Positions 42,329 to 46,624 of a DNA stretch of 48,621 nt are shown here, piece by piece. The notes beneath the pieces are model-generated. The model ran no database searches. It saw nothing but the letters and a program-made list of their open reading frames with translations, and was not told the origin of the DNA. Position numbers and translations under genes: made by a program. The stretch covers positions 1 to 48,621 of the forward strand of contig JAFTTY010000039.1 in the NCBI GenBank assembly GCA_017466525.1. The letters run 5' to 3'. How positions within the stretch are numbered: position 1 is the first letter of the stretch; the number at the start of each line of letters is the position of its first letter. The DNA comes from Alphaproteobacteria bacterium (GTDB lineage Bacteria; Pseudomonadota; Alphaproteobacteria; Rs-D84).

Positions 42329-44074
42329 ATGTTATTTGGTAAAAAATCCGGTATAAAAAACCGCAATCGTGAACGTTATGAACGCGTTCGTCGCCTGCTG
42401 TGGATTAAGTGCGAGGCATGCGGTCGCCTTGTTTATTACAAAGATTACAAAGAAAATAAATATATTTGCCCGAACTGTGGTCGTGCGTTTATTATGACGC
42501 CAAAACAGCGTTTCGATTTACTGTTTGATGACAATACATGGGAACGCCTGACACCACCAACAATATCGGATGATCCGCTGGAATTTACAGATCGTGTGTC
42601 GTATGCCGATAGATTGGCTGACGCACGTTCTGAAACAGGTTCTTATGACGCAATCACAACCGCAGACGGCACAATTGGTGGCGTTCCATCAACTGTTTGT
42701 GTATTAAATGGCCTGTTTATGATGGGGTCAATGGGACGTGCCGCCGGCGATGCGATTGTTGCTGCAATGGAACACGCAATTGCAGAACGTCGTCCATTTA
42801 TTATGGTGACGTCCAGTGGTGGCGCCCGTATGCAAGAAAATATTTTATCGTTGATGCAGATGGCACGCACAACGGTTGCTGTGAACAAATTGCACGAGAA
42901 CGGAATACCATATATCGTGTTGTTAACTGACCCAACATTTGGTGGTGTAACTGCATCCTTTGCGATGTTGGGTGATATTCATATCGCTGAAAAGGGTGCG
43001 CGAATTGGATTCGCGGGCCGTCGTGTTATTGAACAAAATATTCGTGAAAAATTACCATCAAAATTCCAGACGGCGGACTATTTATATGAACATGGTATGG
43101 TTGATATGGTTGTCGCACGTGGTGATTTGCATGATGCCATTGCGCGAATTTTGCATGTCTTAACCAAACAAGAATGCGAACCAAAGACAATCAAGACAAT
43201 AACGCCACCACATGATGCGTCAAAGAAAATACGTGGCATGGGTGAAAACGAGGCCTATGACAAAGTTTTATTGGCGCGCAATGAAAACCGTCCGCATTTC
43301 TTGGATTATATTGACGGCATTGTTGATGAATGGACATATTTGGCCGGCGACAGATTATTTGCCGAAGATGCCGCCATGGGTTCTGGTATTGGATATTGGC
43401 GCGGAATCCCGGCTGTAATTATTGGTCAAGAACAGGGACGCACAATTGAAACACGTCAAAAACATCGCTTTGGTATGGCAAATCCAGACGGCTATCGCAA
43501 GGCGCAACGTATGATGCGTCTGGCAGAAAAGTTTAATTTGCCACTGATATCGTTATTTGATACCGCCGGCGCATTCGCAGGCCGCGAAGGCGAAGAACGT
43601 GGTCAGTCCCAGGCTGTTGCATCATCTATCTCGGTTGGTCTGTCTATCAAGACGCCATATGTCGCCGTTAACGTGGGGCAGGGTGGTTCTGGCGGCGCCA
43701 TCGCGATTGGTACGGGCGACCGTGTCTTGATGATGGAAAACGCAATTTATTCGGTTATTGCGCCAGAATCTTGTGCCAGTATTTTATGGAAAGATAATAA
43801 GTTTAAGGCAACTGCCGCCCAGGCAATGAAGTTGACTGCGCGTGATATGGCGAATCTGAATGTTATCGATGAAATTATACCGGAACCGGCCGGTGGGGCG
43901 CATACAGATTGGCAAACGACAATGGAATTGTTGGCAAATGCTGTGGCAAAACAGATTACAGAATTGCAGCAAATTCCGGCAAATGAATTGCCGGCCCGTC
44001 GTGCTGAAAAGTATATCGCAATGACGCGCGATGTCGAAATATATCAGCCTGACCACGTCAGTGACGAACATTAA
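42329..44074 (+). CDS. accDA: Acetyl-CoA carboxylase carboxyltransferase, AccD-AccA fusion
   Basis: 581 residues joining both carboxyltransferase subunits. Residues ~1-290 are AccD-like, with a zinc finger (CEAC...CPNC at about 28-50), MGSMGRAAGDAI and TSSGGARMQE. Residues ~300-581 are AccA-like (IIGQEQGR, HRFGMANPDGYRKA, LFDTAGAFAGREGEERGQSQA, VNVGQGGSGGAIAIG). AccD and AccA are normally separate and total over 620 residues; the AccA N-terminal coil is shortened here. The enzyme carboxylates acetyl-CoA to malonyl-CoA for fatty acid synthesis. No frameshift or stop separates the halves. Confidence 0.92.
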   Translation: MLFGKKSGIKNRNRERYERVRRLLWIKCEACGRLVYYKDYKENKYICPNCGRAFIMTPKQRFDLLFDDNTWERLTPPTISDDPLEFTDRVSYADRLADARSETGSYDAITTADGTIGGVPSTVCVLNGLFMMGSMGRAAGDAIVAAMEHAIAERRPFIMVTSSGGARMQENILSLMQMARTTVAVNKLHENGIPYIVLLTDPTFGGVTASFAMLGDIHIAEKGARIGFAGRRVIEQNIREKLPSKFQTADYLYEHGMVDMVVARGDLHDAIARILHVLTKQECEPKTIKTITPPHDASKKIRGMGENEAYDKVLLARNENRPHFLDYIDGIVDEWTYLAGDRLFAEDAAMGSGIGYWRGIPAVIIGQEQGRTIETRQKHRFGMANPDGYRKAQRMMRLAEKFNLPLISLFDTAGAFAGREGEERGQSQAVASSISVGLSIKTPYVAVNVGQGGSGGAIAIGTGDRVLMMENAIYSVIAPESCASILWKDNKFKATAAQAMKLTARDMANLNVIDEIIPEPAGGAHTDWQTTMELLANAVAKQITELQQIPANELPARRAEKYIAMTRDVEIYQPDHVSDEH

Positions 44075-44682: not shown

Positions 44683-44727
44683 CCCGCCGATTTGGCGGGT
44701 GAATTTTCTGGCGGAGCGTATAGGACT
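44683..44727 (-). repeat. Duplicate of tRNA-Ser(GCT) 3' end plus terminator
   Basis: 45 bp identical to 44860-44904: the terminator hairpin CCCGCC/GGCGGG and the tRNA 3' end through CCA, discriminator, acceptor and start of the T-arm. Confidence 0.9.
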
Positions 44728-44859: not shown

Positions 44860-44904
44860 CCCGCCGATTTGGCGGGTGAATTTTCTGGCGGAGCGTATAG
44901 GACT
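44860..44904 (-). repeat. tRNA-Ser(GCT) 3' end plus terminator, original copy
   Basis: The 45-bp repeat partner belonging to the complete tRNA-Ser gene. Confidence 0.9.
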
Positions 44905-44973
44905 CGAACCTATGGACCAAAAATTTCGGTCACAGATTAGCAATCTGCTGCATTACCACTCTGCCAACGCTCC
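44886..44973 (-). tRNA. tRNA-Ser (GCT)
   Basis: 88 nt with a long variable arm, acceptor GGAGCGT/ACGCTCC, discriminator G, encoded CCA, T-loop TTCGAGT and anticodon loop TTGCTAA (anticodon GCT). Confidence 0.93.
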
Positions 44974-45035: not shown

Positions 45036-45065
45036 TTGACCCAGATTGGCGTGGCGTGGCATAAT
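45036..45065 (+). promoter_or_regulatory. Promoter of cysS leader
   Basis: TTGACC, 18-bp spacer, CATAAT. The leader-peptide ATG lies 6 bases after the -10 box, at the expected RNA start. Confidence 0.55.
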
Positions 45066-45071
45066 CAACGC

Positions 45072-45110
45072 ATGACAATTCGTTTTATAAATTTTTACTG
45101 TTGTCGCTAG
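45072..45110 (+). CDS. Cys-Cys leader peptide upstream of cysS
   Basis: A 12-codon frame encoding MTIRFINFYCCR and a TAG stop, with two adjacent Cys codons (TGT TGT) just before the end. It starts at the predicted transcription start, as rhizobial trpL does, and lies 90 bases upstream of the cysteinyl-tRNA synthetase gene. A hairpin follows 11 bases after the stop. This is the layout of an attenuator that senses charged tRNA-Cys. It is inferred from position and codons only; no homologue was compared. Confidence 0.6.
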   Translation: MTIRFINFYCCR

Positions 45111-45121
45111 TATTTATTTTC

Positions 45122-45142
45122 TGCAAACTAAATTTGTTTGCA
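45122..45142 (+). promoter_or_regulatory. Hairpin of the putative cysS attenuator
   Basis: Perfect 7-bp stem TGCAAAC/GTTTGCA with a 7-base loop, followed by only a short T stretch. It may be a weak terminator or a structure that affects ribosome access. TTGTC within the Cys codons could pair with GACAA next to the cysS ribosome binding site. Confidence 0.45.
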
Positions 45143-45199
45143 TTTCAATCACGCAATTATTAAAATTTCAAAAACATAAACTGACAAAGGACACATATC

Positions 45200-46624
45200 A
45201 TGACGATTAAATTATATAATACATTAACGCGAAAACTAGAAGAATTCAAGCCATTGGAAGCAGGCAAAGTTGGCTTTTATTCATGTGGTCCGACAGTTTA
45301 TCATTATACGCATTTAGGGAATTTGCGTACTTTTTTACATAACGATTTTTTAAAGCGTATGTTCTTGGCAAATGGCTATGACGTTCGTCATGTTATGAAT
45401 ATTACAGACGTCGGTCATTTAACCAATGACGATGATGATAGTGGCGAAGACAAAATGGAAAAGGGCGCTGCACGCGATAATAAGTCTGTATGGGATATTG
45501 CAAAATTTTATAAGGGCGAATTTCTGCGCGATTTTAACGACTTGAACATGATTGCGCCAACTGTTATGCCACATGCCACAGATTACATTGCAGAGCAAAT
45601 TGAATTGGTTCAAAAGTTGGAAAAAATGGGGTATACATATGAGATTCCTGGCGATGGAATATATTATGACACCTCAAAATTTGCTGCATATGGCGCATTG
45701 ACTGGTGGAACTTTATCTGGGAATCGTGCCGGTGCACGTGTTGGTTTTAATGACGCAAAGCGCAATCCAACAGACTTTGCTTTGTGGAAATTTTCACCAA
45801 CAGACGCCAAACGTCAAATGGAATGGGACAGCCCGTGGGGTGTTGGTTTCCCTGGTTGGCATGCAGAATGCAGCGCAATGAGCATGAAATTATTAGGCGA
45901 CCACTTTGACATTCATACCGGCGGCGAAGATTTATCGCGTGTTCATCATGCAAATGAAATCGCGCAGAGCGAACCAATCACAGGTGCACCGTGGGTAAAT
46001 ACGTGGTTGCATTACAGCTTTTTGTTAGACAAATCAGGCGAAAAGATGGCAAAGTCTAAGGGCGAATTCTTAGGAATGGATGCCGTGCGTAATCGTGGGT
46101 ACGATCCGATGGTGTATCGTTATTTTGTCGCCATGGGTCATTATCAGTCACAGTTGGCGTTTTCGTGGGAAACTATGGACGCAACTGCAAAAAGTTATGC
46201 AAATTTGGTGCGTCGTGTATCTGAATTACTGAACTCAGAAAAGGGACAGGTTGACGACACGGTTTATAACAAGTGGCGCAACGAAATGATTGAAGCGATG
46301 TCTGATAATTTAAAAACCGCGTCGGTTTTGGTCTTGTTGCAAGAATTTATTAAATCAAGCGATATAAATGATGCAACCAAGTTGGCATTAGTTCATGTTG
46401 TTGATGAACTGCTGGGTCTGCAATTTATTGACCGCGCAACAAAATTGGTCGCATTGGAAAATGAATCTGCCCCGGCGGAAATTGTCGCGCTTGCAGAAAA
46501 ACGCGCAGCTGCCAAGGCGAACCGTGACTGGGCGACTGCGGACGCGTTGCGCGCCGAAATTGATGCGGCGGGCTGGACAATTTTGGATTCCAAGGACGGA
46601 TACAAAATCGTAAAAAAGGCATAA
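45200..46624 (+). CDS. cysS: Cysteinyl-tRNA synthetase
   Basis: 474 residues. The class I site HLGN (HIGH motif) is near residue 38 after [10 protein letters not shown]. The zinc ligands are Cys in YSCGPTV and the C-H-E set in GWHAECSAM and HHANE, and the signature KMAKSKG (KMSKS) is near 280. It charges tRNA-Cys. The C-terminal helical domain ends in the usual [13 protein letters not shown] motif. AAAGGA precedes the ATG. A 130-base leader with a Cys-rich peptide suggests control by cysteine supply. Confidence 0.95.

Follow-up and report, generated by a model that had tools for sequence, protein, structure and literature searches.

The cysS Upstream Region Contains a Cys-Codon Reading Frame, a Hairpin, and Two Predicted Promoters

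The window analyzed here is the whole stretch of 48,621 nt, positions 1–48,621 of the forward strand of contig JAFTTY010000039.1 (Alphaproteobacteria bacterium, GCA_017466525.1). Its source is contig 38 of a 0.94-Mb draft genome from an uncultured alphaproteobacterium, whose close relatives in the collection searched are mostly MAGs from gut and rumen. The region in front of cysS is organized as follows:

44886–44973, reverse strand: tRNA-Ser(GCU), divergent in the window; in several relatives it shares the strand of the short reading frame and lies immediately before it
45036–45065, forward strand: predicted promoter P1, TTGACC-18-CATAAT, with TG before the −10 box (promoter scan)
45072–45110, forward strand: upstream open reading frame (uORF) MTIRFINFYCCR*, leaderless-looking (sequence, conservation, and codon-position substitution pattern)
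45099–45104, forward strand: tandem Cys codons TGT TGT, a putative sensor (two changes, both synonymous, in 34 aligned leaders)
45122–45142, forward strand: perfect 7-bp hairpin TGCAAAC(TAAATTT)GTTTGCA, 11 nt after the uORF stop codon
45138–45166, forward strand: second predicted promoter P2, TTGCAT-17-TAAAAT (TANNAT-like box at a single fixed distance in almost all of 40 loci)
45143–45185, forward strand: G-poor, unstructured, rut-like tail with C>G (composition and folding)
45186–45191, forward strand: Shine-Dalgarno sequence AAAGGA of cysS (sequence)
45200–46624, forward strand: cysS, cysteinyl-tRNA synthetase (PF01406, E = 4e-86)

The uORF reads ATG ACA ATT CGT TTT ATA AAT TTT TAC TGT TGT CGC TAG and encodes 12 residues. 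The first-pass annotation had described a 12-residue leader with adjacent Cys codons, followed by a perfect hairpin and then cysS, and all of these elements are present (45072–45110, 45122–45142, and 45200). Its placement of the leader at the predicted RNA start also agrees with the promoter scan, in which the −10 box of P1 ends 6 nt before the ATG. No Rfam family scored above chance at 45072–45200, and the sole match in a plasmid similarity search was the cysS coding sequence.

Two observations concern the DNA upstream of this region. A perfect 45-nt direct repeat (44683–44727 and 44860–44904) comprises a hairpin that resembles a terminator, together with the tRNA-Ser(GCU) 3′ end, and looks like a duplicated tRNA 3′ end of the kind left by an integrated element. 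At 42329–44074, a single 581-aa frame combines AccD-type (zinc ribbon, carboxyltransferase) and AccA domains and is a fused acetyl-CoA carboxylase carboxyltransferase.

The PALP domain of the cysteine synthase family was not detected in the window's genome or in any of the 27 good-quality genomes of the genus that were searched, and was found in 14/14 control genomes. The genus therefore probably depends on imported cysteine, so that external supply probably sets tRNA charging, and with such a dependence it makes sense for a sensor of charging to act on cysS.

The uORF Is Conserved across a Family and Carries Codon-Level Signs of Translation

Relatives were gathered by genome search, a scan of named genomes, and region fetches. 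The short Cys-containing frame that the first-pass annotation expected upstream of cysS in close relatives is indeed conserved: an ATG-started uORF with clustered Cys codons occurs in 41 of 70 distinct cysS upstream regions, all 41 of them in the window's genus. The Cys codons are adjacent in all but two of these (39/41), and a stem follows the uORF in nearly all. The uORF is missing upstream of the same cysS in five genus loci (L009, L012, L035, L037, and L040) and in the sampled other families of the order; genus members without the leader element still have cysS. Some genus members (L122–L127) carry a divergent cysS, with ∼35% identity to that of the window, and here too the leader is missing; the divergence suggests gene replacement.

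A covariance model of the leader, built from 34 loci, matched 62 of the 113 family genomes, exactly once each, and none of those sampled from the order's other families. We fetched 20 of the matches, mostly loci outside the model-building set. All 20 contain a Cys-containing uORF, and a recognizable cysS start lies directly after the leader in 19, including loci of five other genera; the exception is L256, whose cysS start was not recognized by the motif. Seven of the 20 belong to six other genera of the family, and leaders from other genera include MKTFFSSFSCCC, MKLFLSFSCCCR, MRLFNINIYCCC, and MIVKYINFYCCC. Besides Cys, the residues F-I-N-F-Y are conserved in the peptide, and some subclades retain only its Cys-rich end (MKKFLSCYCCR, MKQFLSCCCCC). 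The probability of an ATG-started small ORF (sORF) with adjacent Cys codons arising by chance in the window's intergenic stretch is ∼1.2% (Markov shuffles), and a chance origin is ruled out by conservation in 41 loci together with out-of-sample recovery by the covariance model. A genus-wide pattern, AAYTTYTAYTGYTGY, matched the cysS leaders and seven other sites; these seven resemble chance or coding sequence and were rejected as leader copies elsewhere in the genus.

Substitutions in the uORF were counted by parsimony on the cysS protein tree. Over codons 2–11 of 34 aligned leaders there are 31, 23, and 53 changes at codon positions 1, 2, and 3, respectively. Codon 6 has 13 third-position and 0 second-position changes, and codons 10 and 11 (Cys-Cys) have two synonymous and 0 nonsynonymous changes. 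This codon-level selection indicates that the uORF is translated. A translated uORF with clustered codons for the cognate amino acid upstream of cysS, a defining feature of leader-peptide control, was thereby found.

The Hairpin Is Conserved as an RNA Element

The stem mostly lies 7–19 nt (median 12 nt) after the uORF stop codon, which places it just beyond a terminating ribosome. Hairpin pairing is kept in 204/204 cells of the 34 aligned sequences. In loci with the right arm GTTTGC, the left-arm substitutions (11 loci) are all tolerated by G-U pairing in the sense RNA; the stem has undergone compensatory replacement in L036, L025, and L054, and other genera have different stems, including CAGGCAA/TTGCCTG (L252), GTGGTT/AACCAC (L254), and TGGGC/GCCCA (L258). 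These G-U-compatible and compensatory changes, together with the different sequences in other genera, indicate that the hairpin acts as an RNA feature. Loop length varies among loci, and the stems at L017 and L260 are weak. The 48 nt past the stop codon are more stably folded than their shuffled versions (mean z −1.84, 58 loci), compared with a mean z of −0.04 for the comparable stretch of ten leader-lacking genus cysS loci. In the window, the folding energy of the whole leader is unremarkable (z −0.26), so only the local hairpin is meaningful. No RNAP pause consensus was found after the hairpin in alignment column counts.

A Leaderless-Looking Start and an Internal Promoter

In 32 of 41 loci, the promoter scan places the end of the P1 −10 box 4–10 nt ahead of the ATG, a spacing that should put the AUG at the RNA 5′ end or immediately beside it. 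Seven loci have no P1 (L007, L016, L018, L021, L024, L034, and L044); their uORF begins 10–19 nt after tRNA-Ser(GCU), an arrangement also found in another genus (L253 and L254); at L007 a TTGCAT-17-TATAAT box is located upstream of the tRNA. The 5′ end of the leader RNA in these tRNA-linked loci would presumably be made by tRNA 3′ processing.

A TANNAT-like box occurs 19 nt after TTTGC in nearly all of 40 loci, giving TTGCNN-17-TANNAT, and the scores of all other offsets are well below that one. The predicted boxes of P2 in the window are TTGCAT at 45138–45143 and TAAAAT at 45161–45166. P2 is retained in the leader-lacking loci L035, L037, and L040, and L012, also without a leader, has TTGACT-17-GATAAT where P2 would stand. 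The P2 −35 box coincides with the hairpin 3′ arm in most genus loci; it sits in the hairpin loop in L258 and after the stem in L253, so this overlap is not required. Through P2, part of the transcripts may start downstream of 45072, a start site that the first-pass annotation had held would count against a leader; P1 remains. On this comparative evidence, the element is a real, family-wide, leaderless-looking Cys uORF with a conserved RNA hairpin and a predicted internal promoter before cysS.

Ribosome Position Has Little Predicted Effect on the Hairpin

For constrained folding, the RNA was blocked to 12 nt past the start of the A-site codon, with the ribosome placed at the first Cys codon or at the stop codon. 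Neither the Cys-stalled nor the terminating ribosome reaches the hairpin, whose paired fraction is 0.70 with the ribosome at Cys and 0.68 at the stop; accessibility of the cysS start is 0.54 (stalled) versus 0.57 (terminating). On average, the left arm has no better-than-chance partner in the uORF (mean z 0.06), and the right arm has none downstream (mean z −0.58), except in a subclade whose cysS starts ATGCAAA. Codons 1–3 of the uORF can pair with codons 10–12, a pairing that depends on repeated UGU and that several loci do not preserve. A run of at least 5 T follows the stem in 7/41 loci, and at least 5 T fall within the 8 nt after the stem in 13/41; in the window, a terminator scan found none between P1 and cysS. 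Neither a consistent intrinsic terminator after the uORF nor an alternative antiterminator that forms or not according to where the ribosome stands, both features of classical attenuators, was found. With no consistent U-run, no competing pairing, and a stem unaffected by the ribosome, a textbook terminator/antiterminator switch is not supported, and the earlier proposal that stalling changes the hairpin did not hold up.

At L049–L052 and other loci in which cysS starts ATGCAAA, the hairpin 3′ arm can pair with the start codon region, a possible lineage-specific translational switch.

The Tail before cysS Resembles a Rho Loading Site

Measured over a fixed interval upstream of cysS, the tail of leader loci has C 0.175 and G 0.070, compared with C 0.165 and G 0.172 for the 5′ flanks of 124 other genes and C 0.116 and G 0.148 in ten genus cysS loci without a leader; P values for tail composition across loci ignore shared ancestry. 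New loci repeat the bias (C 0.163, G 0.045; C>G in 16/17), and the tail has less structure than its shuffled versions (mean z +0.42). It looks like a Rho loading site, and the window's genome encodes a rho gene; C>G, G-poor, unstructured RNA before cysS and rho itself are thus the features of Rho-dependent attenuators that were seen. The composition may instead serve ribosome access to cysS, or P2. A ribosome at the Cys codons leaves the tail uncovered, so how it would block Rho is not obvious.

Comparison with Known Leader Peptides

The pheM-pheST system of Escherichia coli places a synthetase gene under a leader peptide in which the cognate codon is abundant, with an intrinsic terminator and a Shine-Dalgarno-led leader. 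The present element likewise joins a synthetase gene to a cognate-codon-rich leader; it differs in its leaderless-looking start and in having no consistent terminator.

A Cys attenuator for cysS has already been predicted, so the idea itself is not new. The first-pass annotation was aware of no described case for a Cys-tRNA synthetase in this group, but uORFC-8-2, found before Rhodobacterales cysS, was published in 2021 (PMC8632094). It comprises 145 examples, located only before cysS in Rhodobacterales, with tandem Cys codons and a U-run terminator. Both elements combine an alphaproteobacterial cysS, a short tandem-Cys uORF, and a stem after the uORF (PMC8632094), and relief on low Cys-tRNA was proposed for uORFC-8-2 as it is here. 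The Cys codons of uORFC-8-2 are usually 14–15, with UGC dominant, whereas those of the present element are 10–11, with UGU dominant, and the U-run terminator, present in all uORFC-8-2 cases, is inconsistent here. uORFC-8-2 also has a first stem that includes its Cys codons; the observation bearing on this feature here is the pairing between codons 1–3 and 10–12 described above. The present element further has a leaderless-looking or tRNA-linked start and an internal P2, and lies outside the taxon of that motif.

Leaderless polycysteine sORFs of mycobacteria are described as cysteine-responsive attenuators (Canestrari 2020, cited in PMC9031893), with an elongation speed that depends on cysteine. 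As described there, they share with the present element a leaderless sORF with contiguous Cys codons before the regulated genes (PMC9031893); this likeness, by description and across phyla, is limited in that here cysS lies behind the sORF and a conserved hairpin follows it. The trpL leader of Sinorhizobium meliloti begins at the RNA 5′ end (PMC7298713) and resembles the present uORF as an alphaproteobacterial leader peptide, close to it in length (14 aa), that is leaderless and contains control codons, but it responds to Trp, has a biosynthetic target, and uses a true terminator/antiterminator pair.

Within other alphaproteobacterial families, a tandem-Cys sORF lies ≤250 nt from cysS in 4/77 loci versus 0.9 expected, an excess that is suggestive only. 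Such sORFs lie close upstream of cysS at L217, L212, L214, and L233; L217 (MYKFLNCCRCCC) and L233 (MNTASIIIICCITR) look like further cases, the latter with a leaderless-looking start and a GC-rich stem. A separate leaderless-looking sORF, MVKSTRYNFFGLFFAL*, was observed at L240 (G000 contig 8, ∼793–880), ahead of a 64-aa frame. It overlaps a stem (GCCC/GGGC) whose tail is T-rich, and may be a Phe-codon leader or chance. A Phe leader was looked for before pheS and was not seen.

A Probable Cysteine-Charging Sensor in Front of cysS

Our best reading is Cys-responsive control of cysS in cis, with the uORF as a sensor of charged tRNA-Cys, to which we give a probability of about 0.65. Comparison among loci supports the translated uORF, its Cys codons, the promoter-ATG geometry, the hairpin, P2, the biased tail, and the link to cysS.

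Several other accounts have to be weighed against it. Classical attenuation, in which the hairpin forms an intrinsic terminator and stalling at the Cys codons switches between it and an antiterminator, would fit the tandem Cys codons and the spacing of the stem from the stop codon, the published description of uORFC-8-2, and the T-rich sequence after the stem in some relatives (the 13/41 loci above, and L252). It nevertheless appears quite improbable, given the inconsistent U-run, the lack of competing pairing above chance, ribosome positions that fall short of the stem, and the empty terminator scan. A post-transcriptional role, in which a stalled 5′ ribosome protects the P1 mRNA against decay or changes how cysS is translated, compares with the mycobacterial polycysteine sORFs and would suit the leaderless-looking 5′ end, with Cys codons ∼27 nt from it, and the AU-rich, single-stranded tail. 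We consider this account unlikely: pairing of the 3′ arm with the cysS start AUGCAAA is available in one subclade (L049–L052, z −2.4 to −3.5) but missing in most loci, the window included, and start accessibility barely differs between ribosome positions.

The uORF could also be a small gene in its own right that encodes a trans-acting peptide, its position before cysS being mere synteny. Conservation of F-I-N-F-Y besides Cys, the independent P1, and the precedent of S. meliloti peTrpL, a leader peptide with a trans role (PMC7298713), point that way; we think it very improbable, as subclades keep only the Cys-rich end and the covariance model finds one match per genome, at cysS in 19/20 fetched. 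Hardly credible is an inverted repeat that serves as a regulator-bound DNA operator of P2. Its right half is the P2 −35 box in most genus loci, yet loop length is variable, G-U pairs form in the sense RNA, compensatory replacement has occurred, other genera have other stem sequences at other positions relative to the −35, and L037 and L040, which lack the leader, have lost the GC end of the left arm.

Under Cys-responsive control in cis, a strong P1 (or the tRNA-Ser gene in some relatives) would yield RNA with a 5′-terminal or near-terminal uORF AUG. When Cys-tRNA is scarce, ribosomes would stall at the uORF Cys codons and alter the share of P1 RNA that becomes productive cysS mRNA; we infer the sign to be more cysS at low Cys. 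The weaker P2 within the leader would give basal cysS, bypassing the sensor. For the output step, which would not be an intrinsic terminator, our leading guess is conditional termination of the Rho type, tentative and well short of even odds: Rho would terminate prematurely on the G-poor, C>G tail, the hairpin would serve as a pause or boundary element, and a stalled ribosome would keep Rho off the leader RNA. More doubtful is the full scheme of an attenuator without terminator or antiterminator, in which a leaderless Cys uORF gates Rho on a short rut-like tail, P2 supplies basal cysS, and in several species tRNA processing frees the uORF from a tRNA-Ser precursor.

Cys-sensing control of cysS would extend to a family of gut alphaproteobacteria that have small genomes and are apparently cysteine auxotrophs, and there is a hint that the class may have evolved such sensors more than once. 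A route to leaderless mRNA through tRNA processing is suggested by the loci linked to tRNA-Ser. If the missing terminator is real, the element would be a compact example in which leader-peptide control has another kind of output.
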